In this document: positions 3,943 through 52,300 of the stretch, piece by piece
Position numbering within the stretch: the stretch's first letter is position 1
Layout: each line of letters begins with the position of its first letter
NCBI GenBank assembly: GCA_947038515.1
Contig: CAMQWJ010000001.1
Location: forward strand, 269,580 to 332,750
Origin: an uncultured Fusobacteriaceae bacterium
Lineage (GTDB): Bacteria; Fusobacteriota; Fusobacteriia; Fusobacteriales; Fusobacteriaceae
Direction of reading: 5' to 3'
Length of the DNA stretch: 63,171 bases
Notes under the pieces: generated by a model
The model's database searches: none
Told to the model about the DNA's origin: nothing
Seen by the model: the letters and a program-made list of their open reading frames with translations, nothing else
Program-made: the position numbers and the translations under genes

Positions 3943-5118
3943 ATGAAACAAAATCTTTTTAAATATATTGAAGATATAAAAGAGCCTCTTCTTACTTTAG
4001 GAGATTTCATCTTTGATACCCCTGAAATTGGGTTACAAGAATTTGAAAGTTCTAAAAAAATAACAGAAATTTTAAAAGAAAATGGTTTTGAAATAGAATA
4101 TAATATTGGAGGGCTGGAAACAGCTTTTAGGGCAACATACCAAAATGGTATTGGTGGACCTTCAATTGGTTTACTATGTGAATATGATGCTCTAGAAGGA
4201 ATTGGGCATGCCTGTGCTCACCATATGCAAGGTCCTAGTATTTTAGGAGCTTCATTAGCTTTAAAAAATCTTATTACAGATCTTAATTATAAATTAGTAA
4301 TTTATGGTACTCCTGCTGAAGAAACTATCGGTGGAAAAGTCACTATGTTGGCCAATCAATGTTTTAATGATATTGATGTAGCACTTATGATGCATGGAGC
4401 CCCTGATACTACTACTGATGTTAAATCTTTAGCACTATCAAACTTTACTGTTAAGTTTCATGGAATTCGTTCACATGCTGCTTTAGCTCCTGAAAAAGGT
4501 AGAAGTGCATTAGATGGTCTTTTAATTTTATTTCAAGGAATTGAATTTTTAAGAGAACATGTAAGAGAAGATGTTAAAATGCATTATACTATCATCAATG
4601 CTGGAGGACCTGCTAATGTTGTACCTAAATATGCAGAGGCAAAGTTTAGTCTTCGTTCTTATGATAGAGCTTACTTAAATCAAACTATTGAAAGATTTAA
4701 AAAAGTTGTACAAGGTGCTTCTTTAATGACTGAAACAGAATATGAAGTTATTGAAACTAAATCCCTTGATAATAAAATACCTGTTTTAACTCTGAATAAT
4801 CTTTTAATGGATAATGCTGGACTTGTTAATGCTCCTAGAATTTCTCCACCTCGAGAAAAAACAGGTTCTACAGATTTTGGAAATGTTATGTATCACGTAC
4901 CTGGCTCTTGCATTAGAATTGCCTTTGTTCCACCTGGAACTTCTTCTCACTCAGATGAATTTTTACAAATGGGAAAAACAAAAGAAGCACATGATGGAAT
5001 TATCTTAGCAGCTCAAATACTTGCTGGAACAGCATATGATATTATCTCTAATGAAGAAAATTTTGAAAAAATAAAATCAGAATTTAAAGAAAATAAAGAG
5101 AAAAGTGTTAAGCTTTAA
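3943..5118 (+). CDS. M20-family metallo-amidohydrolase (AbgB/PM20D2-like)
   Basis: A cytosolic zinc amidohydrolase of 391 aa, no signal peptide. It shows LLCEYDALEGIGHACAHH (about 83-100), the metal site of this subfamily, and GTPAEETIGGK near 126-136 carrying the catalytic Glu pair. Best general match is the branch that includes p-aminobenzoyl-glutamate hydrolase subunit B and PM20D2-type dipeptidases. It is co-transcribed with the YfcC carrier upstream (AAGGAG ribosome site). The last 48 nt of the gene plus the following bases are repeated at 11491-11544, about 6.4 kb away. The exact substrate is unknown. Confidence 0.9.
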   Translation: MKQNLFKYIEDIKEPLLTLGDFIFDTPEIGLQEFESSKKITEILKENGFEIEYNIGGLETAFRATYQNGIGGPSIGLLCEYDALEGIGHACAHHMQGPSILGASLALKNLITDLNYKLVIYGTPAEETIGGKVTMLANQCFNDIDVALMMHGAPDTTTDVKSLALSNFTVKFHGIRSHAALAPEKGRSALDGLLILFQGIEFLREHVREDVKMHYTIINAGGPANVVPKYAEAKFSLRSYDRAYLNQTIERFKKVVQGASLMTETEYEVIETKSLDNKIPVLTLNNLLMDNAGLVNAPRISPPREKTGSTDFGNVMYHVPGSCIRIAFVPPGTSSHSDEFLQMGKTKEAHDGIILAAQILAGTAYDIISNEENFEKIKSEFKENKEKSVKL

Positions 5119-5124
5119 TAAAAA
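5071..5124 (+). repeat. Left copy of a 54-bp direct repeat (M20 gene 3' end)
   Basis: The stretch starting ATAAAATCAG and ending GCTTTAATAAAA, covering the last 16 codons of the M20 gene and its stop, matches 11491-11544 with 52 of 54 identities (differences at 5100 and 5108). The two copies are exactly 6420 bp apart and bracket the symporter, ade and arsenic genes. Confidence 0.9.
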
Positions 5125-5145
5125 GTCTCACTAAAAATAAACTGT

Positions 5146-5195
5146 AACCATGAAACTAGACACATATAAAAAAGTGTCTGTTTCATGGTTTTTTT
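5146..5195 (+). terminator. Terminator of the yfcC-M20 operon
   Basis: Long stem AACCATGAAAC..GACAC pairing with GTGTC..GTTTCATGGTT (one internal mismatch), followed by TTTTTTT. Confidence 0.9.
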
Positions 5196-5233
5196 GATTA
5201 TAATTTTTTAATAAGAATCAAAAGGAGAGAAAT

Positions 5234-11304: not shown

Positions 11305-11489
11305 TGGCTTGTATTAATGTAAAAGATTGCTCATGTCCTAAAGTGAGTTGTCCTAATCATGGAAAATGCTGTGACTGTGTAGTTAAACATAAAAAAACTG
11401 ATAGTTTACCATTCTGCCTTTTCCCCAATAATGATGGAGATAAAAGTGTCAAAAATTATTACATAAATTTAAAAAAGAGGTTTGAATAG
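11304..11489 (+). CDS. Small cysteine-rich protein (DUF6485-like)
   Basis: A 61-aa protein with eight cysteines in its first 38 residues, arranged CSCPKVSCPNHGKCCDCV..H and FCLF. This resembles the DUF6485 family, whose members carry the same CCxCVxxH core and are probably metal- or zinc-binding. It overlaps the thioredoxin stop codon by one base (TAATG), indicating translational coupling, and is the last gene of the arsenic-type operon. The C-terminal 20 residues are basic and unlike the core. Function unknown; thiol-metal binding is inferred. Confidence 0.7.
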   Translation: MACINVKDCSCPKVSCPNHGKCCDCVVKHKKTDSLPFCLFPNNDGDKSVKNYYINLKKRFE

Positions 11490-11490
11490 C

Positions 11491-11544
11491 ATAAAATCAG
11501 AATTTAAAGAAAATAAAGAAAAAAGTGCTAAGCTTTAATAAAAA
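11491..11544 (+). repeat. Right copy of the 54-bp direct repeat (M20 gene 3' end)
   Basis: Begins two bases after the Cys-rich gene's stop codon. It copies 5071-5124 with two substitutions and encodes the last residues of the M20 enzyme with its stop, but no M20 gene precedes it here. Confidence 0.9.
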
Positions 11545-20342: not shown

Positions 20343-23300
20343 TTAGAATTTATAACCTATTCCAATTGTTGCATTTACATTTCTATTATAATCTTTTGAA
20401 AATTCTATACTTACTCCTGCTGTGTATATCATTCCATTTGTTTGTTCTAATTCTAGGTTATATGAAGCTTTTCCTGATAAGTCTGGTAATTCTGTTTCTT
20501 GAATCTCAAAATCACTTCCTTTCTTGTTTGCTCCTAGGATTCTTCCTCTTAATTTTTTTGAATCACTTCCTAATGTATTTATTACTCCTAAAGAGAAAAT
20601 GTTATTTAATTTCCCTTTTTCTAATTGAACTGTTTTTACGAAATCTACTCCTACTTCTAAATCTAATGTATCACTGCTGGCTTTATCTACTTCTATTGAT
20701 AATTGTCCAGGGTTATATCCTTCATCTACACTTCCTTGATTTATAGAGTAATAACTTAATCTAGCTTTTGGTTCTACTCTCCAATTTTGAGTTCCTTCAT
20801 ACACATACTTTGCTTCTAAAAATGCATTATAAGAATTAACATCATATTTATCATTTGTTTTAAATGAATCATATCCATTTGATACTTCTCTATCTGCATC
20901 TACTGATGTATATTGGTACCCTAATCCTCCCATAAATCTGAAATTATTCATCTCTGTTTTAGCAAATGTTCCTACATATACTGAGGTTCCTTCTACTTCA
21001 CTTGAACCTTTGAAATTAATACTCTGATTATTTCCACCAACTACTAATCCTACTGAAGTTTTATCTGTTAATCCATATTCAAATGTTGCTAATCCTCCGA
21101 TTGTATTCGTTGTTGTATTGTAGTTTCTATGTCCTGTGTCAAATCCATAATAATTTTTTCCGTTATCTGTATTATCATTTTTTACTCCTGTATATATTGC
21201 TTTTCCTTGAGTTATTAATTCATGTTTTTTTGGTTTTATTGTTAAATATGATATATTATCTTCAAATAACTTTAAACTATCTCTTGATGATTTTAATGTA
21301 TATGAATAAGGACTATTTGCATATATTTGATCTAACATAGTTAGTAATCCACCTAAAGATTCTTCATATGTCTTGTCTCCTAAATAAGTTGTATTTGCTA
21401 ATTTTCCTATTTCTCCTGCACTTATTATTGATTTATACACTTTATTTAATTGTATATATAAAAGATCATCTGTAACTGTTGGTGGCACTGGTTTAGATGG
21501 TTCTACTGGTATAGACGGATCTACTGGTGTAGAGGGACCTACTGGTATTAATGGTAAATCTTGAAATAAAGTTATTTTTATATTTTTATCAGCTAATAAG
21601 GTAGCATTTAGAACTAATGAATCAGTTCTTAGTTTATTCTTCTCTTCATCATATACTGTATCTATATTTTCATCTACTATTGACCCATTCGTTGCAATAA
21701 TTGCATTCTCTCCCAAACCGTTTAATCCCATCACGAATTTTCCGCCACTAGAAGTAATATTTCCTGTATGATTATATAAAGCATGTCCAGTTATGTAGTC
21801 ATTTGAATCTCGTTGTGAAGAATCAATTCTTAAAGTTAGATCTCCACTCTCTATATTTATATTTCCATCACTAACTTTTGCTGTTTCAAATAGAGTTACA
21901 TTACTATTTGTCTTTATTTCTTCAAAACCTGCTATCTCATGAAAAATATTTAGAGTTGTATTGCTTATTGTTGCTAATTTTTCTCCTAAATTTAGAGTAT
22001 CATTTCCTAATCCTCCATTTAGATTCCCATTTATTTGAACTGTATTTCCTAGAGTTAATGTATCTTCTCCAGCTCCTAAATCAACAGAACCATTTATTAT
22101 AGAATTTCCAGATATATTTAACTTGTTGTTTCCTAAATCTCCTTTGATTATAGCATCTTTATTCTCAATTCCTCCACCATTAAAAATGGTATTTGTTGCA
22201 CTCAAGCTAGAATTGTCACCCTTTAAATGAACTGCTGTCTTATAACCATTAATTACTGAATCTGTTGTAGTTACTTTTGCTCCATTATCTATATTTAGAG
22301 CCCCTGTTGATATTCCTGCTCCATTTATTATATAATCACTATATGTTGTATCTGATGAAATAGTTGTTGAACTATCTAAATCATTTGTAACTAAAGTTCC
22401 AGTAATTCCAGAATTTAATATTGTTTTTCCTGCAATCACTCCTCCTGCCTCATTGACTATATTGTTAACAGTTCCATCTGCTTTCAAATATACAAAAACT
22501 CCATTATTCTCAACAGGACTAGTCGTGTTCGGATGACTAGTTATTTCTACTATATTTTCTCCTATAAGAATACCATTATTTACTACTGCAGATATCTGTT
22601 GCTGTGGTAGTCCCCGATTATGGTTAATCGAAATAGCACTAACATTACTTTTTATTACTCCATTATTTGAAATTTTTGAATCTAACACTCCATGTGGAAC
22701 AACGTTTATTCCAGCTGCTGAGTAATAAAAATTAGTTTTTTCAAGAGAATTGTAGCTAGAAATAGTTCCAGTATTTTCAATAACCAATTTACCTTGTACG
22801 CCCATGTTACCTTCAACTAGAATTCCAACTCCACTTACTGGATTAGAGGGTCCTCCTGATAGAAAATTTTGAGCTCCTTCGTATCCTGAAATTATTCCTT
22901 TATTATTAATAGTCGAAGTTTGACCTGCAGTATTACTTAATCCAAAATCCATTCCATATCCTACATAACCAGCTGAACCAGTAGCTAAGTGATATCCTCC
23001 TATCAAACCTATATTTTCAAATGTACTATCTAATGTAGAAGCCTTTGTTGCAAGACCTATAGCATAATCATTACCTATTCCTGCCAGTGCTCCTGTTCCT
23101 GTTTTCCCTATTATAACTCCACTATTTTTAAAGTCTGTTATAATGCCAGCTTCAACTCCCACTCCTGAAAGAGTAGCTCCATGTTCAAGATAACCAGTAA
23201 TTACACCGTTATTTTCAAATGAATCAATTATTGCATTTAGATGCATTCCATATCCTGTGCCTGCTGAAAAACCTGCCACTGAAGTATAATCTGCACTTCC

Positions 23301-23999
23301 TGAAATTAACCCTTCATTTTTTACAACCGAAATCTTACCTATTGTAGCAAATACTCCATTTCCAATATTTGATTTTACAGTGGATTGAGAAACCTCTCCT
23401 TTAATTACACCCCTATTTTCAAATAAATCCATCGAGCTTCCTGCTGCTCCTCCATAAAGAACAACTCCATTTCCTGAGTTTGATTTGTCTATGGTAGATT
23501 TATAGTGTCCAGCAATCAATCCATTATTTATAAAGTTACCTAATGTTAGTGCATGCGATTCATTAAAAACAAATACTCCATTTCCTGATTGCACGTGTGC
23601 AGCTGCTGTTCCTAAAGAATCTTTAGCTATAATCAACCCATTATTTTTTATTTCATCTATATTTATGTTTCTAAAAGTTGTTCCAGCTGGATAGGCATCA
23701 CGTGTATCAAAATATATTCCACTTTTATTTCCAGTCGCTATAATATATCCATTATTAGTAATTTTTATTAAATCCGTGTTTGGATTAATTAAATTTAAGT
23801 ATATTTCTCCTGTAATTTTTTGATTTTGATCTATCACTAAAGATTTATCTGGAATTAAAAGTTGTTCTATAGTACCATCATTAAAATAAATTGAACCGAT
23901 ATCTAATGGTGCTCCATATCCAATACTTTTAGTAACTAAAAAAGCCACTAATAACGTTTTTTTTAGTTGAACATAATTTTTACAATTTTCTTTTTTCAT
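20343..23999 (-). CDS. Type Va autotransporter, repeat-containing passenger
   Basis: A 1218-aa outer-membrane/surface protein. It has an extended signal peptide (about 1-30, cleavage near YGA), a passenger of about 800 residues, a proline-rich linker (near 820-845, repeats of P-x-x-P-V-x-P-S), and a C-terminal beta-barrel from about 915 ending IGIGYKF, with the terminal Phe required for BAM recognition. The first 560 residues hold at least ten degenerate units with an N-N-G-x-I-x-G core about every 30 residues, typical of a beta-helix. AGGGGGG precedes the ATG. It is likely an adhesin or fusobacterial autotransporter; the ligand is unknown. No subtilase or esterase motif is visible. Confidence 0.92.
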   Translation of the reverse strand: MKKENCKNYVQLKKTLLVAFLVTKSIGYGAPLDIGSIYFNDGTIEQLLIPDKSLVIDQNQKITGEIYLNLINPNTDLIKITNNGYIIATGNKSGIYFDTRDAYPAGTTFRNINIDEIKNNGLIIAKDSLGTAAAHVQSGNGVFVFNESHALTLGNFINNGLIAGHYKSTIDKSNSGNGVVLYGGAAGSSMDLFENRGVIKGEVSQSTVKSNIGNGVFATIGKISVVKNEGLISGSADYTSVAGFSAGTGYGMHLNAIIDSFENNGVITGYLEHGATLSGVGVEAGIITDFKNSGVIIGKTGTGALAGIGNDYAIGLATKASTLDSTFENIGLIGGYHLATGSAGYVGYGMDFGLSNTAGQTSTINNKGIISGYEGAQNFLSGGPSNPVSGVGILVEGNMGVQGKLVIENTGTISSYNSLEKTNFYYSAAGINVVPHGVLDSKISNNGVIKSNVSAISINHNRGLPQQQISAVVNNGILIGENIVEITSHPNTTSPVENNGVFVYLKADGTVNNIVNEAGGVIAGKTILNSGITGTLVTNDLDSSTTISSDTTYSDYIINGAGISTGALNIDNGAKVTTTDSVINGYKTAVHLKGDNSSLSATNTIFNGGGIENKDAIIKGDLGNNKLNISGNSIINGSVDLGAGEDTLTLGNTVQINGNLNGGLGNDTLNLGEKLATISNTTLNIFHEIAGFEEIKTNSNVTLFETAKVSDGNINIESGDLTLRIDSSQRDSNDYITGHALYNHTGNITSSGGKFVMGLNGLGENAIIATNGSIVDENIDTVYDEEKNKLRTDSLVLNATLLADKNIKITLFQDLPLIPVGPSTPVDPSIPVEPSKPVPPTVTDDLLYIQLNKVYKSIISAGEIGKLANTTYLGDKTYEESLGGLLTMLDQIYANSPYSYTLKSSRDSLKLFEDNISYLTIKPKKHELITQGKAIYTGVKNDNTDNGKNYYGFDTGHRNYNTTTNTIGGLATFEYGLTDKTSVGLVVGGNNQSINFKGSSEVEGTSVYVGTFAKTEMNNFRFMGGLGYQYTSVDADREVSNGYDSFKTNDKYDVNSYNAFLEAKYVYEGTQNWRVEPKARLSYYSINQGSVDEGYNPGQLSIEVDKASSDTLDLEVGVDFVKTVQLEKGKLNNIFSLGVINTLGSDSKKLRGRILGANKKGSDFEIQETELPDLSGKASYNLELEQTNGMIYTAGVSIEFSKDYNRNVNATIGIGYKF

Positions 24000-24083
24000 A
24001 ATTCCCCCCTATTCTATTCTTCCATTTTTTATTCCTTGCTCTCCGATTTACTCATTACTTATTTGAGTATCCTTATTAAGAGA

Positions 24084-24135
24084 AAATACTGCTTCTAAGG
24101 GACAAGTTATATTTCAGCTCATATCTTCTCCTTAA
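24084..24135 (-). pseudogene. HxlR regulator 5'-end remnant
   Basis: On the minus strand AAGGAGAAGATATG then M-S-stop-NITCPLEAVFS, matching the first 13 residues of the intact HxlR protein (27109 start, MRENITCPLEAVF) and its ribosome site. DNA similarity to 27070-27122 is high. A nonsense codon at position 3 and the lack of the rest show it is dead. Confidence 0.8.
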
Positions 24136-24172
24136 ATTACTCTTCTAAATAATAAATTACTCTTCTAAATAA
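24133..24172. repeat. Perfect tandem duplication of 20 bp
   Basis: Unit TAAATTACTCTTCTAAATAA occurs twice head to tail (24133-24152, 24153-24172), within the remnant region. Confidence 0.9.
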
Positions 24173-24242
24173 AAGATATTATATCATAATAACATACAAT
24201 TACAATAAATATACATATAGAATATATGTATAAGATATATGT

Positions 24243-24325
24243 ATAACTAATCCATTCTACATTGTCTTTATACACTAGTTTCTCTATTGATATAGTCCCA
24301 CTATAATTCTTTTTACTATCTAATA
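24243..24325 (-). pseudogene. Remnant of the 3' end of the 128-aa ABC-operon gene
   Basis: On the minus strand the frame reads KLVYKDNVEWISY, identical to the end of the intact protein encoded at 27188-27574 (residues about 110-122), and the DNA closely matches 27206-27289. Beyond this the frame diverges. With the HxlR fragment it reproduces the order found at 27.07-27.29 kb. Confidence 0.8.
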
Positions 24326-24326
24326 A

Positions 24327-24362
24327 TATATGTTATACTATTCATATATGTTATACTATTCA
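24327..24362. repeat. Perfect tandem duplication of 18 bp
   Basis: Unit TATATGTTATACTATTCA occurs twice (24327-24344, 24345-24362). With the next 26 bases it resembles DNA at 33929-33983 upstream of the GIY-YIG gene. Confidence 0.85.
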
Positions 24363-24420
24363 TAATATTATGTACTAAAATATATGAATAATAATGATTA
24401 ATATCATAACAATTATTCTA

Positions 24421-24482
24421 TTTTTAAATAGCATTAAAACTACAGACTGAAAAACAATCTCCGTATCCTATACATGAGTCTA
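24421..24482 (-). pseudogene. 4Fe-4S ferredoxin-domain remnant
   Basis: The minus strand reads SCIGYGDCFSVCSFNAI then a stop. The family motif is CxxCxxCxxxC; the second Cys is Tyr here, so no cluster could form. DNA is about three-quarters identical to 51731-51790, inside the intact flavin/4Fe-4S gene. No start or further domain is left. Confidence 0.7.
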
Positions 24483-24541
24483 CAACAAGAGTTAATGAAT
24501 GGAACAAAAAGGCTTGGAAAACTATAATTCAAGGAGGGAAG

Positions 24542-25171
24542 ATGTTTAAAACTAAAAATTTAACATTTAAAGGATTTCTAAAATATAATGATATTCATAT
24601 TTTAGGTCAAAAAATAAATTTCATACAAGGACCCAGTGGTGCCGGAAAAAGTACATTACTAAAACTATTTAACAGAACAGAAAATTTTTCTACTGGTGAT
24701 ATAATTTTTAAAGAAACTTCCATCTTAGAATATGAAAGTATTTCTCTTCGAAAAACTGTGAAATTAATCTCACAAACTACGTTCTTATTTCCAACCACAA
24801 TTAGAGAGAATTTCAAAATATTTCACAACTACTGTAATTACAAAATAGAATTAAATGATAAAATATTAAGCACTTTTTTAAATATAACATCAGCAGATTT
24901 TGATTTAAATACAGACTGTAACAATCTATCTGGAGGAGAAAAGCAAAGAGTTTATATTGCTATATGTCTTTCCATGGAATCTGAAGTTATTATGCTTGAC
25001 GAACCAACCTCGTCCCTGGATCCTACATTATCACATAAAGTTATGGAAAATATTATTAACTATATAAAAACAAATAATAAAACACTAATTGTAATAAGCC
25101 ATGACACTTCACTAGTTGATAAATTTGCAGAAAATATTATACTACTAAAAGGAGATATAAATCATGGATAA
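24542..25171 (+). CDS. fetA: FetA-like ABC transporter ATP-binding protein
   Basis: A 209-aa ABC ATPase that energises the FetB permease; in E. coli the pair (YbbL-YbbM) exports iron and protects against oxidative stress. It has Walker A GPSGAGKSTLLKL (near 30-42), Q-loop SQTTFLFPTTIREN (near 78), signature LSGGEKQRVYIA (near 128), Walker B VIMLDEPTSSLDP and the H-loop ISHD. AAGGAGGG precedes the ATG. It overlaps fetB by 8 bp. Upstream is the remnant-rich region, and the frame just before the start (EWNKKAWKTIIQGGK) looks like the end of an unidentified protein. Confidence 0.88.
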   Translation: MFKTKNLTFKGFLKYNDIHILGQKINFIQGPSGAGKSTLLKLFNRTENFSTGDIIFKETSILEYESISLRKTVKLISQTTFLFPTTIRENFKIFHNYCNYKIELNDKILSTFLNITSADFDLNTDCNNLSGGEKQRVYIAICLSMESEVIMLDEPTSSLDPTLSHKVMENIINYIKTNNKTLIVISHDTSLVDKFAENIILLKGDINHG

Positions 25172-25937
25172 TGTAGTAAAAATTAGTATAATAAATTTTT
25201 TCATTATATATTTATTATTAATTGTTGTTGGAGTTATAATGAAAATAAGTAAAATTAATCAAAGTAAATTACTTATTATTGCAAGTATTAGAATGACATT
25301 ACAACTGGTTATTGCAGGCTATATTCTAATATATTTGCTTGACAACCCCTCTCCAATACTAATAATAGCATATGTTCTCCTTATGTCAATCTTTGCTATT
25401 CACAGAATACTTTCAGTTAACAAAGGATTAAATAAGAAGTTCAAACTTATTATCGCTATATCAATTATAGCTTCCAGTATTTCAATTATCACTTTTTTTA
25501 TTTGTGTAATAATCAATCAAAGTATATTTAACCCGCAATATACTATCCCTATCAGTGGTATGATATTAGGTAATGCCATGACAGGAATATCACTGGGAGT
25601 AAGATCATTCATGGCAAAAATTAAAGACTCTCAACTACAAATTGAAGTTCTATTAAATCAAGGAGCTCTTCCTAAAAATATATTATTACCAATGGTTAAT
25701 ACATCCATTGAAACTGCATTACTTCCAACAATTAATTCCATGCTTGGAATGGGAATTGTATCCCTCCCTGGTATGATGACAGGACAAATACTTGCAGGGG
25801 GATCTCCCTCTACTGCAATTTTTTATCAAATTACAATTACTATTTGTATCTCAACCGTTGTATGTTTATCAGTATTTTTATCACTCTACTTAGGTTATAA
25901 AACATTATATAATAAAGAAAATCAATTTATTATCTAG
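25164..25937 (+). CDS. fetB: FetB-like (UPF0014) ABC permease, putative iron exporter
   Basis: A 257-aa inner-membrane protein with about seven helices. It carries the UPF0014 hallmarks GMILGNAMTGISLGVRSF (near 130-147), an EVLLNQGALPKN stretch, and the C-terminal LPGMMTGQILAGGSPSTAI (near 210-228). It is translationally coupled to fetA. The pair is well conserved and probably functional; iron export is taken from the E. coli homologue. The pair lies between the two copies of the HxlR/128-aa-gene junction sequence. Confidence 0.9.
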   Translation: MDNVVKISIINFFIIYLLLIVVGVIMKISKINQSKLLIIASIRMTLQLVIAGYILIYLLDNPSPILIIAYVLLMSIFAIHRILSVNKGLNKKFKLIIAISIIASSISIITFFICVIINQSIFNPQYTIPISGMILGNAMTGISLGVRSFMAKIKDSQLQIEVLLNQGALPKNILLPMVNTSIETALLPTINSMLGMGIVSLPGMMTGQILAGGSPSTAIFYQITITICISTVVCLSVFLSLYLGYKTLYNKENQFII

Positions 25938-26063
25938 TGGGATACTTAACAAACCAGTATTTTATGAAATAAAAACATCAGATTTAACCATTTTAAATAA
26001 TGATTAGGTTAGAAAAAAACGAGGAATGAAGTATCCAATTTAAACAATATTTAAATTAATATG

Positions 26064-26098
26064 AAAAAAAACCTTAGAAATTAATCTAAGGTTTTTTT
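26064..26098. terminator. Bidirectional terminator between fetB and the PEBP gene
   Basis: AAAACCTTAGA pairs with TCTAAGGTTTT around AATTAA, with A- and T-runs on either side. Confidence 0.9.
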
Positions 26099-26114
26099 AT
26101 TTAGAATCTTAATA

Positions 26115-26666
26115 TTATTTATTGTAGTTTCCTTTTAATATAACTTTATCAAGAATATGCCCTTCCATCTCTTTATATAATTCATTTAAATAAAAACCTG
26201 ACTTTAATTCTAAATTTTTATCAAGAGCATACAAAACTATAGTATATGTATGAGCTTTGTCTGGAGGAGCAGGACCACCAAAATGTGAAGCATCACTTTT
26301 ATTTAATCCACCCATTTTAGAAATCCAACTGTTAACACCTTGAATAATATCTTTATTTTCTAAACTTGCATTTTCTTTTAATTCAGTTGTAGTTCCCGGT
26401 ATTATAGTAACCCAATGTATCCAAGAAAACCCTGTAACAGGAATAGCATCAAAATCTTCTATTACTAAAGCATAGCTTTTAGTGTTTTTAGGAGCATTAT
26501 TCCATTTTAACGGTAATGATAATGATGGTACTCCATTTAAAGTTTGGCTACCATATTTACCATATTTTTCTTGGATATAACCATTTTCAATCCCATTACT
26601 CTCTAAAGTAAATCCAAGTGCCGATACAGATAAAGTAGTTAAAGCTACTGATATAATCTTTTTCAT
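26115..26666 (-). CDS. YbhB/YbcL-family PEBP-like protein, secreted
   Basis: A 183-aa phosphatidylethanolamine-binding-protein/Raf-kinase-inhibitor-like protein. It has a signal peptide (residues 1-18, MKKIISVALTTLSVSALG), the family ligand-site motifs YALVIEDFDAIP and WIHWVTIIPG (near 70-95), and HFGGPAPPDKAHTYTIVLYAL near 131-151. I chose ATG at 26664-26666 because GGAGG lies 8 nt upstream; the longer in-frame start is a TTG inside that site. An HxlR regulator lies upstream on the same strand and probably controls it. The bacterial function of this family is poorly defined. Confidence 0.9.
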   Translation of the reverse strand: MKKIISVALTTLSVSALGFTLESNGIENGYIQEKYGKYGSQTLNGVPSLSLPLKWNNAPKNTKSYALVIEDFDAIPVTGFSWIHWVTIIPGTTTELKENASLENKDIIQGVNSWISKMGGLNKSDASHFGGPAPPDKAHTYTIVLYALDKNLELKSGFYLNELYKEMEGHILDKVILKGNYNK

Positions 26667-26691
26667 AAATATTACCTCCAATTTTTTTATT

Positions 26692-26723
26692 TAACTTAAG
26701 TTTTTATTTGGTTTAACTTAAAT
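26692..26723. promoter_or_regulatory. TTAACTTAA direct repeats, candidate HxlR operator
   Basis: TTTAACTTAA appears twice about 22 bp apart, the first inside the palindrome AACTTAAGTT (26693-26702), between the PEBP gene and the HxlR gene. Repeats of this kind and position suit HxlR-type regulators; not tested. Confidence 0.35.
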
Positions 26724-26794
26724 TTTTCTTAATTAAAAGATAACATTTAGAAGATTTTCTGTCAATAACTCACTTTTTTGTAAGTATTAAAGTA

Positions 26795-27109
26795 TTATTT
26801 CTCTAATAAATATTTAATTCCTATTTCTTGGAATTTTGCAAAAGTAGGAATTAGTTCTTTTCCAAAGTTAGTTAGTTTATATTCAGTATGTTTTGGATAT
26901 ACATCAAATTCAATTTTTTCTAAAAGTCCATAATTAACCATATCATTTAAATGTTGAATTAACATTTTTTCATTGCATCCAGCAATATCCTTTTTTAAAT
27001 TAGTCAAACGTTGATTCCCCAGTCGCATTCGCCATAAAATAATAGGGGTCCATTTTCCTTTTAAAACAAAAAATACTGCTTCCAAGGGACAAGTTATATT
27101 TTCTCTCAT
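26795..27109 (-). CDS. HxlR-family winged-helix regulator
   Basis: A 104-aa DNA-binding protein. It has the HxlR start CPLEAVFFVLKGKWTPIILW (Cys at 7) and RLTNLKKDIAGCNEKMLIQHLNDM, then the wing YPKHTEYKLTNFG. Members sense redox, aldehyde or quinone stress through the N-terminal Cys. AAGGAGAATAT lies before the ATG. The neighbouring PEBP gene is the likely target. Its 5' end is duplicated at 24084-24135. Confidence 0.92.
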   Translation of the reverse strand: MRENITCPLEAVFFVLKGKWTPIILWRMRLGNQRLTNLKKDIAGCNEKMLIQHLNDMVNYGLLEKIEFDVYPKHTEYKLTNFGKELIPTFAKFQEIGIKYLLEK

Positions 27110-27187
27110 ATATTCTCCTTAATTATTATTCTAATAAGCATTATTTTTTTATTATATCATTAGAATATAGAATTACAAATATAATTG

Positions 27188-27574
27188 TTATTTATACATC
27201 TCTTTATAACTAATCCATTCTACATTATCTTTATACACTAATTTCCCTATTGATATGGTCGCATTATAATTCTTTTTAATAATAAATTCTTTCTCTACTA
27301 TAATTTTTTTATTTTCTTTTGTCTTATAAGAAAGATTTATTATATGTTTTTTTCCTTTTACATCTACTTTAGATTTCTTATTTGTTTTAACCTTTAATAT
27401 TTTCCCACCATCCATTGAATAATAAACATCTCCTAAAGGTGGAAAGTCTTCTATTTTAAAGTTTTCTATAAAAATTCCATGTCCTTGTCCACTCTCATAT
27501 ATTTTTGTCATTCCAAAAAATAAAAAACTCAAAACCACTAGCCAAATCACTATTTTTTTCTTATCTTTTATCAT
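27188..27574 (-). CDS. Small membrane-anchored protein of an ABC transporter operon (DUF6672-like?)
   Basis: A 128-aa protein with one N-terminal transmembrane segment (about 7-24, KIVIWLVVLSFLFFGM) and a Lys-rich extracytoplasmic domain with beta pattern (GGKILKVKTNKKSKV, IINLSYKTKENKK). It overlaps the permease gene by 4 bp (ATGA), so it is the last gene of the DUF3798-type operon. I recall small proteins labelled DUF6672 beside such transporters in fusobacteria but cannot confirm the match. No enzymatic motif is seen. It could be an accessory subunit of the transporter. Its 3' end is duplicated at 24243-24325. Confidence 0.7.
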   Translation of the reverse strand: MIKDKKKIVIWLVVLSFLFFGMTKIYESGQGHGIFIENFKIEDFPPLGDVYYSMDGGKILKVKTNKKSKVDVKGKKHIINLSYKTKENKKIIVEKEFIIKKNYNATISIGKLVYKDNVEWISYKEMYK

Positions 27575-28680
27575 TTAACCTCACACCCCTCTCCTCTATA
27601 TAGAGCAAATGCTTTTTCTCTTTTTATTTTATTTTCTTTCTCACGTCTCCATTGGTGTAAAACTAGAACTAAAGCTATTATTCCATATGATATAAACACT
27701 CTAAAAAACTCACCTATTTGTGCTGATCCAACAAGCTCTTTTCCTGCACGAGGTGATATTATAAACATTAAGTGAAATAATATTACTCCTGTTAAGGCAT
27801 TGGAAATATTCGCTTTATATATAGAAGCTCCACCCATTAATAATGCTGCTATTGAAAACATTCCTATTTGCTCATGACTATTATATGTATTCATTGTCCC
27901 TATATTTTGCAAATATATTATTTGTCCAAATGCTGCTAAAATAGTTGATATTACAATTGCTATTATTCTTGTTTTTTCAACTTTTATACCAGCAGCTCTA
28001 GCTACTTCCATATCTTGACCAATAGCTTTCATATCTTGTCCTAATTTTGTTTTTCTTATCCAAGTTATTAAAATACATAATAGTCCTATTATTAAAAATG
28101 TAGCTACTGGTATATTAATCCCTTGAATCTTAACTTCTAATATAGTGTCAAGAGCACGTCTTATACCTTTTAAATCTATAGCATTTCTAATACCTATTCC
28201 TGTTGATAAAACTAATTTAGGATTTATTATTTTTATAATAACACCCATTCCATATAATACTAATAACTGATAAACTCCATTTAAAAAGAAGCCCAACATC
28301 ATAGAAGTTATCATTTCACTACCTTTTGCTCTATTTAAAACCATTCCACAAACTATTCCTAGCAAAATAGCTATTGGTATTGAAATTATTCCTGCTAAAA
28401 TTACCCCCTCTATACCTATTATATTCCATTCCACAATAAAAATAAGTGCTATTTGTCCTGCCATTGCTCCAAGAACTATACCAAAGTTTAATCCCATTCC
28501 AGCAATTATAGGTATTAATAATGAAAGTATTAAAAATAAATTTCTACTTAATCTATCTATTATTTCTTGAATTAAATAAGATGGACTTAGTTTTGACATT
28601 GGTATAGTAAGTAGTATCAATAGAAATATTACCAGTGGAACTATGTTATCCTTTATAAATTTTTTCCCTTTCGTTTTCAT
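27571..28680 (-). CDS. ABC transporter permease (BPD_transp_2 type), subunit 2
   Basis: A 369-aa inner-membrane permease of the ribose/nucleoside (CUT2/BMP-type) group with about 9-10 helices. It shows the motif GLNFGIVLGAMAGQIAL near 63-79, the coupling region KLGQDMKAIGQDMEVARAAGIKV (in parts: LGQDMKAIGQDMEVA near 211-225), and QIGMFSIAALLMGGASIYKA near 270-289. It starts 2 bp after the end of the other permease. GAGGGG precedes the ATG. It should form a heterodimer with the upstream permease. Confidence 0.92.
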   Translation of the reverse strand: MKTKGKKFIKDNIVPLVIFLLILLTIPMSKLSPSYLIQEIIDRLSRNLFLILSLLIPIIAGMGLNFGIVLGAMAGQIALIFIVEWNIIGIEGVILAGIISIPIAILLGIVCGMVLNRAKGSEMITSMMLGFFLNGVYQLLVLYGMGVIIKIINPKLVLSTGIGIRNAIDLKGIRRALDTILEVKIQGINIPVATFLIIGLLCILITWIRKTKLGQDMKAIGQDMEVARAAGIKVEKTRIIAIVISTILAAFGQIIYLQNIGTMNTYNSHEQIGMFSIAALLMGGASIYKANISNALTGVILFHLMFIISPRAGKELVGSAQIGEFFRVFISYGIIALVLVLHQWRREKENKIKREKAFALYRGEGCEVK

Positions 28681-33689: not shown

Positions 33690-34005
33690 AATTATAGCCT
33701 CCTTTTGTATGGGGGGATATTAAAAATAATAATAAAATTCATTTATATTTCTCACTCACGCTTTATCAAATGATAACATAATTTGTATGATAATTCTATT
33801 AGTTTTTTACAAAAATTTTTACTGTTAATATGACCTGTAATAACCAACTATCTCTTGTCTTTTTTCTTTCTTATTGAGCTCCTTGTCTATTTTTTTTAAT
33901 ATTTTTCTTCTAAATATATTAAAGAGTTTAATAATATATGGTATACTACTCATAATATTATGTACTGAAATATCTGAACAATATAGCATATACAAGGAGA
34001 AAAAA
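33690..34005. other. Divergent intergenic region with a repeated promoter-like segment
   Basis: Holds the PhzF ribosome site and, at 33929-33983, a segment (TAATAATATATG..TACTCATAATATTATGTACT) that resembles 24321-24388. AAGGAG at 33994 serves the GIY-YIG gene. No further gene is visible. Confidence 0.6.
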
Positions 34006-34854
34006 ATGACCTTTAGTAAAACAATTCAAATGTATATTTTTGATGGCAATCCCAATGGACGAATTATGTGTGAATTATCAAATTGGAATGGTAGAGTTTA
34101 TAAAGTTTCACGTAATGAAATATCAGAATTTTCTAAACGGGAAGATGCTGAAAATACAGGTGTATATTTTTTATTTGGTAAAGATGAAAATAATGTTGAT
34201 ACAATTTATATTGGTGAAGCAGAAAAAATGTTAACAAGAATAAAACAGCATTTAAAAGATACTGTATATTGGAATAATTGTATCCTTGTTGTTAGTAAAG
34301 ATAACCTTTTAAATAAAGCTCATGTCAAATTTTTAGAAAATAAGTTCTATTTAATAGCCAAAGATTCTGGTAGAGCAGTTGTTATAAATAGTACAATTCC
34401 AACTCGTTCTTCAATCTCTGAATACGATGAAGCCATGTTAGAAGAGTTTATCAGTAATACAAAACTTCTTGTTAATACATTAGGGTACAAAGTATTTGAT
34501 ACTATTGAAGAGAGTACTATAAAAAATGAAGATAATAGTATGAACTTTTCTATTACAACTACTAAAGGGGTAAAGGCAAATGGATTACTCGTTGCTGATG
34601 GATTTGTAGTCTTGGCAGGATCAATTGTTACTAATTCAACAGTTCCAAGTATGTCACCTAATTTAAAAAAGTTACGTGATAATTTATTTACAAAAGAAAT
34701 AATAAATAAAGATAATGTGTTTAATCAGGATCATATATTTACTAGTCCATCATTAGCAGCAGCAACGGTATTAGGAAGAAATGCCAATGGTAGAACTGAA
34801 TGGAAAACACAAGATCAGAAATCTATAAAGGATTTAGAAGAAAATAATAAATAA
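34006..34854 (+). CDS. GIY-YIG nuclease-domain protein with DUF4357
   Basis: A 282-aa cytosolic protein. The GIY-YIG core is TGVYFLFG (near 53-60) and TIYIGEAEKMLTRIKQH (near 68-84), followed by an Asn/Glu-containing helix region. The C-terminal 90 residues have the DUF4357 pattern KANGLLVADGFVVLAGS and PSLAAATVLGRNANGRTEWK. I chose ATG at 34006 with AAGGAG 6 nt upstream rather than an earlier ATG at 33874, whose N-terminal 44 residues are low complexity and lie over the repeated segment. Such proteins are frequent companions of type I restriction loci; the activity is not established. Confidence 0.88.
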   Translation: MTFSKTIQMYIFDGNPNGRIMCELSNWNGRVYKVSRNEISEFSKREDAENTGVYFLFGKDENNVDTIYIGEAEKMLTRIKQHLKDTVYWNNCILVVSKDNLLNKAHVKFLENKFYLIAKDSGRAVVINSTIPTRSSISEYDEAMLEEFISNTKLLVNTLGYKVFDTIEESTIKNEDNSMNFSITTTKGVKANGLLVADGFVVLAGSIVTNSTVPSMSPNLKKLRDNLFTKEIINKDNVFNQDHIFTSPSLAAATVLGRNANGRTEWKTQDQKSIKDLEENNK

Positions 34855-43358: not shown

Positions 43359-44234
43359 ATGAAAAAAATAAATAAAAGTATTATTATTATTACTATTACT
43401 ATTATTATTATAGTGTTACCAATAATAATAGATAAAACTATAATAGGGAGTAGAGTCCCATCGAATATATCCAATACAGAATGGGTAAGTTTTCTAGGAA
43501 GTTATATGGGAAGTATAATAGGTTCTATTGGAACAATTGCAGGAGTCTATTTAGCAATAAAATTAAATAAAAAAAAAGAGTTGGAGGAGATAAATAGGTA
43601 TTTTGATAATATATTTTCAAATAATCTTAGGGAAAAAAAGAACATAAGGAAGGAATTATTACATAATATTATATATAAAATAAAATATATAGAAAATATA
43701 AATAGTAAAATATATGAGGAAAATTTATTAAATATATTACAGCTAAAGAAATATGAAGAAATTTTAAATATTTACTCTATTCAAAATGAACTTGAAAAAA
43801 TGATAAAAAATGATAATATAACAGGATTTGGCGGTCATATAATAATTAAAAGTTTCGAAGGACTTAAAGAAATTTTAGGAAATAAAGAAGAATTGAGATA
43901 CATACAAAATGTATTGGAAGCAATATCTGTATTAATAGGTACTACAAATGAAAAAAAAATAAAAAATTATTTTGAAAGAAAAGAAAATTTTTTAGAAGAT
44001 GAAATAACAAGTTTTTTAAATAAATACCAAGATCCTTTTCTGAGATTAGAACATTTTATAAATGAGTTACTGATAAATGAACATGCAATGATAAAATGGG
44101 ATGAAATAGACAATAATAAAAAAAGGGAATGTATAAACTTACAAGGAGAAACATTTCTAAGTTTATACGAAATAAAAGAAGTAAGTAAAAGGATTAAAGA
44201 ATATTACTCGTGGGTGGATAAATATTTTTGTTAA
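43359..44234 (+). CDS. Two-TM membrane protein of unknown function in the defence island
   Basis: A 291-aa protein with two N-terminal membrane helices (about 7-27, isoleucine-rich; and 43-66, WVSFLGSYMGSIIGSIGTIAG) and a roughly 220-residue helical, charged cytosolic part with the sequence LNKKKELEEINRYF after the second helix. The WxxFLGSYxGxIIG segment is common in proteins with two membrane helices, including putative phage abortive infection proteins, but I cannot assign a family. GAGGGAG precedes the ATG. It begins 246 bp after hsdR and is followed by another unassigned gene and mrr, all on the same strand. No enzyme motif is seen. Confidence 0.75.
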   Translation: MKKINKSIIIITITIIIIVLPIIIDKTIIGSRVPSNISNTEWVSFLGSYMGSIIGSIGTIAGVYLAIKLNKKKELEEINRYFDNIFSNNLREKKNIRKELLHNIIYKIKYIENINSKIYEENLLNILQLKKYEEILNIYSIQNELEKMIKNDNITGFGGHIIIKSFEGLKEILGNKEELRYIQNVLEAISVLIGTTNEKKIKNYFERKENFLEDEITSFLNKYQDPFLRLEHFINELLINEHAMIKWDEIDNNKKRECINLQGETFLSLYEIKEVSKRIKEYYSWVDKYFC

Positions 44235-51634: not shown

Positions 51635-52300
51635 CTATTTTCTAATTTTTATAGCCCCTGTTGGACATTTTAAATAGCAATCTCCACATTCATCACAACG
51701 AGTAGAATCAATAGTATAAGAATTCTCATCTTTTTGAATAGCATTGAAACTACAAGCTGAAAAACATTTCCCACAACCTATACATTCTTGTTTCTGAAGT
51801 ATTAAATTTGGTTTTTTTGGTTCTGCCTCCCCCAATGTAAAGCGTACCCTTTCCAGTTTGTGGTCACGAAACTTCTTCTCAAAATCATAGTCAAATACTT
51901 CACCTCGCCCATTAAAAATGCAAAAAGTTACCATAGCAGGATATTTATGATTATCTTTTATGCAATAGTCAAAAATAGGGTTATTTTTTTCTTTGATTCT
52001 GTTCATTGATACTTCTTTTACATCTCCACTGATACGAATACTATACCCCGCTTCAAATAAAAGGTTGCCATGCTCGTCTATATTGGTATTGCTACTTGCC
52101 GAAAGACCACAAACAGAGACTTTTTCCGTTTCTTTTAGTTGTTTATAAAATGGTTTAGTAGTCATGGTCATAAAATATAAACCATCTGTATCATAGGCAA
52201 TAAAATGTGCTATTCTAGTTTCTGGATAATCACCATCTATCGTTGCAAATGTACAACATCCTATTGTATCAAACATTTTGTAAATTTCTTTAATTTTCAT
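51635..52300 (-). CDS. Flavin-binding pyridoxamine-oxidase-like protein with two 4Fe-4S clusters
   Basis: A 221-aa cytosolic protein. The N-terminal 140 residues have the split-barrel FMN-binding fold of the pyridoxamine 5'-phosphate oxidase family (TIDGDYPETRIAHFIAYDTDGLYFMT in parts: DYPETRIAHFIAYDTDGLYF). The C-terminal 60 residues hold two ferredoxin motifs, CIGCGKCFSAC and CDECGDCYLKCP. The combination suggests an electron-transfer flavoprotein or reductase. It lies 31 bp downstream of nhaC and is likely in the same operon, divergent from an HxlR regulator, a class that often responds to redox stress. The natural substrate is not known. Confidence 0.88.
   Translation of the reverse strand: MKIKEIYKMFDTIGCCTFATIDGDYPETRIAHFIAYDTDGLYFMTMTTKPFYKQLKETEKVSVCGLSASSNTNIDEHGNLLFEAGYSIRISGDVKEVSMNRIKEKNNPIFDYCIKDNHKYPAMVTFCIFNGRGEVFDYDFEKKFRDHKLERVRFTLGEAEPKKPNLILQKQECIGCGKCFSACSFNAIQKDENSYTIDSTRCDECGDCYLKCPTGAIKIRK

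Follow-up and report, generated by a model that had tools for sequence, protein, structure and literature searches.

Introduction

Gene remnants and pseudogene fragments occur in bacterial intergenic DNA. Mobile promoters, and the propagation of promoters in prokaryotes, were reportedly described by Matus-Garcia et al. 2012 and van Passel et al. 2014, and Harms et al. 2016 are said to have described short-patch double illegitimate recombination. Mobile promoters are similar promoter regions before unrelated genes of one genome (PMC8049555, PMC11111574). Promoter capture includes the activation of transferred genes (PMC11111574) and, in E. coli, a tandem duplication by which citT came under control of the rnk promoter (PMC5918244).

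Here, we describe a 393-base patchwork (24083-24475) made up of three nearly abutting, decayed copies of other DNA from the window (the whole 63,171-nucleotide stretch that was analysed), with few bases left unassigned at the joins. The patchwork falls between three phenomena that are already described, namely gene remnants, mobile promoters and promoter capture; made of remnants, it is also a candidate double promoter capture and no new kind of system. The literature searched contained no published description of this patchwork.

Results

Three scraps match other parts of the window

The features are listed in Table 1. BLAST of the host intergenic stretch against the window gave three strong non-self matches, all direct (168, 68.9 and 62.6 bits), which we call scraps A, B and C. 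Among 300 dinucleotide shuffles of the stretch, the highest score was 42.8 bits when they were compared with the window, and 48.2 bits when they were compared with 453 kb of the genome. Each scrap outscored every shuffle. An inverted match of 39 bits (24333-24378 to 43656-43701) fell inside the shuffle range and was dropped. The scraps share one orientation and their order matches that of their sources. The first-pass annotation had recognised pieces of three window genes. Its outer pieces are sound, and it missed the middle one, scrap B; hence, the patchwork draws on three source loci and holds scraps of four genes.

Table 1. Positions of the patchwork, its sources and the adjacent genes in the window
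Feature	Position	Strand	Remarks
Host intergenic stretch	24000-24541		between autotransporter gene (-) and fetAB-like operon (+)
Autotransporter gene	20343-23999	-	PF03797; downstream of hxlR promoter copy
fetA/fetB-like ABC operon	24542-25937	+	PF00005, UPF0014
Scrap A	24083-24318	-	copy of 27070-27281; BLAST 168 bits
hxlR 5' end remnant	24083-24122	-	hxlR codons 1 to about 13 (alignment, translation)
Copy of hxlR/128-aa intergenic gap	24123 to about 24223	-	alignment
20 bp x 2 perfect tandem duplication	24133-24172		in scrap A
hxlR promoter copy (predicted)	24178-24205	-	TTGTAA-16-TATAAT with TG extension; source 27178-27151
128-aa gene 3' end remnant	about 24224-24318	-	alignment
Scrap B	24321-24393	+	copy of 33929-33983; BLAST 68.9 and 41 bits
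18 bp x 2 perfect tandem duplication	24326-24361	+	in scrap B
Scrap C	24397-24475	-	copy of 51707-51785; BLAST 62.6 bits, 77.2% identity
Source of A	27070-27281	-	hxlR 5' end, promoter, 128-aa gene 3' end
Source of B	33929-33983	+	23-77 bases upstream of DUF4357 gene ATG (34006)
Source of C	51707-51785	-	3' half of 4Fe-4S gene (51635-52300)

Scrap A is a single local match that joins the hxlR 5' end to the 3' end of the 128-aa gene, as had been noted. Identity to the source is 76.7% over 236 columns with gaps, and 182 of 212 aligned bases are identical. The two gene pieces were said to keep the order and distance seen at 27070-27289. The order is the same and the distance nearly so: the copy has 236 bases to the 212 of the source, and the 24 extra bases are mostly the 20-bp duplication. 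That duplication and the 18-bp one are both perfect, as previously recorded. Codon 3 of the hxlR remnant (24114-24116) is a stop; the remnant reads M-S-stop, then NITCPLEAVF. The intact 128-aa gene (27188-27574) lies at the end of an ABC operon. Its best Pfam match, DUF6672, is below threshold (23.1 bits against 24.3), and relatives of its protein, with 25-38% identity, were found in 13 of 60 other genomes searched.

Positions 24344-24393 of scrap B match 33934-33983 with 68.9 bits and 90% identity. A separate alignment of the other 18-bp unit (24321-24354 to 33929-33961) scores 41 bits, which alone is inside the shuffle range. Downstream of the source is a DUF4357 gene (34006-34854), and then type I restriction-modification genes (HsdM-, HsdS- and HsdR-like). 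The minus-strand translation of scrap C is CIGYGDCFSVCSFNAI and then a stop, where the 4Fe-4S gene has CIGCGKCFSACSFNAI. Thus, the Cys-to-Tyr change reported for this motif is real, and a stop accompanies it.

Similarity to intact genes is significant and the reading frames are truncated or interrupted, as in gene remnants. With these stops and the Cys-to-Tyr change, the coding parts of the scraps are dead. Differences from the sources at codon positions 1, 2 and 3 number 9/71, 11/70 and 15/72 of aligned coding columns. Small as these numbers are, the spread appears to lack the strong third-position excess expected of two copies that were long functional.

The patchwork is confined to this chromosome among the genomes searched

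The first-pass annotation had proposed that a better source elsewhere in the genome would show that the fragments are not from these genes. For A and B, none was found in whole-genome searches, with direct BLAST over 453 kb (25%). None was found for C either; this negative is weaker because the genome search also failed to report the known match of C at 51707.

We compared the stretch with other intergenic DNA of the same genome. Intergenic stretches, taken as gaps of 60 bases or more between the ORFs found by a simple caller with a minimum of 70 aa, numbered 164 in 453 kb, or 25% of the 1,778,487-base genome; this part comprises one contig and 120 kb of a second and is not a random sample. 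Fifteen stretches had non-self matches that scored 55 bits or more. Three unrelated sources were found for 24000-24541 alone (1/164), and for none of the other 14. The latter include a tRNA-Met pair (confirmed), lipoprotein-like paralogues that lie next to each other, copies in one or two pieces, and repeats that resemble terminators.

Some further copies were seen in passing. Intergenic positions 11481-11544 are a stray copy of the 3' end of an M20 peptidase gene (3943-5118), taken from 5062-5124 (92% identity over 64 columns). It is a second remnant of the same sort, in a single piece. A repeat 3' of the M20 gene (5117-5215), which looks like a terminator, recurs at 243922-244020 and 245118-245175 of the contig with 87-95% identity. 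At L095, 9945-10154 (contig 149945-150154), a gap that adjoins a 500-aa transporter-like ORF holds two partial copies of 161510-161638 next to each other (82% and 87%).

Among relatives, hxlR and the 128-aa gene were adjacent at none of 13 loci of the 128-aa gene and none of 18 hxlR loci (flanks of about 1.5 kb, or as far as the contig extended); two of the 13 gave no tblastn match even to the 128-aa gene itself. A diverged 128-aa copy beside hxlR may be missed, because the relatives' proteins are only 26-39% identical. At 7 of the 18 hxlR loci, a PEBP gene accompanies hxlR. Scrap A spans a junction absent from the relatives examined; the copying therefore probably took place in this lineage or in one closely related to it as a sibling.

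Matches to 24000-24541 were present in 12 of 40 other genomes, each short (27-114 bases) and scoring 51.8 bits at most. The patchwork as a whole was matched in none of the 40. Of two genomes from the same genus, one (G001) gave no match and the other (G002) a single match of 44.6 bits. The ABC operon to the right of 27.6 kb also occurs in the former, and the PEBP gene in the latter; neither has the patchwork. A search of viral contigs with three patterns gave no match.

These comparisons bear on whether the scraps were imported, in which case conspecific or sister-strain DNA with a different gene order would have entered by recombination and decayed afterwards. Import would be in keeping with the accessory DNA in the vicinity (fetAB and type I restriction-modification genes) and with the differences between pieces and sources, at 10-23% of aligned bases. 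Against this, the hxlR/128-aa junction is absent from the 13 and 18 loci above, and the codon positions carry no sign of two copies diverging as working genes. We regard import as very unlikely.

Two scraps carry promoter-like sites that face the adjacent genes

The copy of the hxlR promoter in scrap A points leftwards at the autotransporter gene. All 14 of its core positions are unchanged, whereas 13 of the remaining 64 aligned intergenic columns differ (Fisher test, one-sided p = 0.06, which alone is not significant). Only seven sites of hxlR quality, source and copy included, occur on both strands of the 63-kb window. Our promoter scan detected no further minus-strand promoter-like site between the copy and the autotransporter gene. 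Overall, the scan gave 9 sites in the stretch and 6.0 (sd 2.0) in shuffles, which is not far above chance.

On the plus strand, the 18-bp duplication in scrap B yields two copies of TGTTATACT, an extended -10 candidate (TGnTATACT), at 24331-24339 and 24349-24357. Both face fetAB, and a scan site at 24312-24339 includes the first. Scrap B has diverged too little from its source for a test of core conservation. The other plus-strand candidates in the scan are at 24267-24296, in scrap A, and at 24560-24589, inside fetA (11-of-12).

The first-pass annotation called the stretch a gene graveyard. It was right that the gene pieces no longer code. The label is probably too simple, since the middle piece was overlooked and two scraps carry outward-facing promoter-like sites. 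In its pure form, this explanation takes the scraps as remnants of a copied segment that are merely decaying, with both neighbours served by other promoters. The broken coding parts, the drift without codon bias, the p value of just 0.06 for the promoter core and the other plus-strand sites all suit it. Conversely, the hxlR promoter core is intact amid 13/64 changes and 24 inserted bases, and both carried sites point at adjacent genes. Pure decay is thus possible but, in our estimate, on the unlikely side.

The fetAB operon was probably acquired without a full promoter

In NCBIfam, the best names for the operon's products are FetB and, as one of several ATPases, FetA; none of these matches reaches its cut-off. 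Its DNA is 77% identical over 1415 columns (24523-25936) to L019, an Erysipelotrichaceae MAG contig, and the two proteins are 72% and 80% identical. Of 60 other genomes in the family to which the window belongs, only 2 have a fetB at E <= 1e-40, with 41-42% identity. Because L019 is the closest relative found and fetB is rare in the family, the operon was probably acquired horizontally. L019, being a MAG contig, may be misbinned.

Similarity to L019 begins at 24523, which is 19 bases upstream of the fetA ATG, at the ribosome-binding site. Hence, the cassette seemingly arrived without a full promoter. A TATAAT beside this ribosome-binding site is common to L019, and could act as fetAB's own -10.

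Structured RNA was considered and rejected. The 196 nt upstream of fetA fold no better than shuffles (z = 0.25; 108/200 as good), and 23000-28000 held no Rfam match at gathering score; of two matches below it, neither is in 24083-24482. The window contains no tRNA or tmRNA.

The joins suggest a trimmed copy or a template switch

The sources of A and B both carry TTTAATAATA where the two scraps join (27275 and 33927). Of 5000 random AT-rich pairs, 32 had as long a match by chance, as did 122 of 20000 draws from intergenic DNA. By our reading of the alignment, the join departs from the expected deletion product by a 7-base insertion and single-base changes. This 10-bp repeat and the colinear scraps are compatible with a tandem duplication; the long second copy is absent. 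Microhomology at the B/C join is unremarkable, with 3734 and 4857 of 5000 random pairs scoring at least as high.

By counting, three pieces share both strand and order in 2 of 48 random arrangements. Such an arrangement suits a segment of about 25 kb with deletions, or one forward-skipping template switch. A long tandem copy normally collapses by homologous recombination without a scar, which counts against a segment copy. C is more diverged than A, by 18/79 to 30/212 (p = 0.11) or, with ungapped extension, 24/88 (p = 0.013), and this inequality does not favour a single event. B and A do not differ in divergence (p = 0.64).

The scraps could instead be separate short insertions, made at different times, each from elsewhere in the genome, for example by short-patch illegitimate recombination. 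The unequal divergence of A and C, the lack of microhomology between B and C and the length of those two scraps (<100 bases) would fit. The shared strand and order are expected in just 2/48 arrangements, and the 236 bases of A are reportedly long for that mechanism, both of which speak against it. We consider separate insertions decidedly improbable.

We give roughly even weight to the reading that the patchwork is the chromosome's own DNA, left by a trimmed segmental copy or by one template switch, and that two of the scraps are now promoters. In this scheme, a segment from about 27 kb to 52 kb would have been copied next to the autotransporter gene, and then cut down via deletions between short repeats, with the A/B join formed at TTTAATAATA. 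Alternatively, one template-switching event would have skipped forward through the 27-52 kb region. Scrap A would keep the hxlR promoter, which would now read into the autotransporter gene. Scrap B would keep the extended -10, later doubled by the 18-bp duplication, and would now read into fetAB; the incoming operon may have required a promoter from its new surroundings. Scrap C would be a passive leader.

A bolder version is that one rearrangement built a two-way control region from scraps of four genes, such that the hxlR promoter drives the gene of a surface autotransporter and the doubled promoter from the restriction-modification side switched on a promoterless fetAB. We hold this to be doubtful. 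The origin of the stretch as copied scraps is well supported, and a promoter role for two of the scraps is suggested.

Discussion

The patchwork shares with mobile promoters the presence of similar DNA upstream of non-homologous genes: hxlR and the autotransporter gene for A, the DUF4357 gene and fetA for B. Unlike mobile promoters, it combines two different promoters with coding scraps, and only two copies of each are known, which are more diverged. The likeness to promoter capture is that rearrangement, possibly through duplication at short repeats, places a silent or incoming gene behind the promoter of another gene. Here, however, the intact duplication is gone, two divergent neighbours may be served and the capture is a candidate. 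Gene remnants are likewise short, decayed, intergenic gene pieces with stops. The patchwork differs in that its pieces, which come from four genes at three loci, almost touch and follow the order of their sources, and in that one promoter core appears to be preserved. Finally, short-patch double illegitimate recombination also copies short segments of a genome to an unrelated place in it, whereas there are three colinear segments here, one of 236 bases.

New arrivals among genes need local promoters, and laboratory evolution has taught the most about how these are acquired. Should the scraps be active, the stretch would be a natural scar of promoter acquisition in which the sources, their order and one join are still recorded, and it would serve as a warning that gene debris between genes can hold working control elements. 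The stretch may be control DNA put to new use, beyond mere debris.
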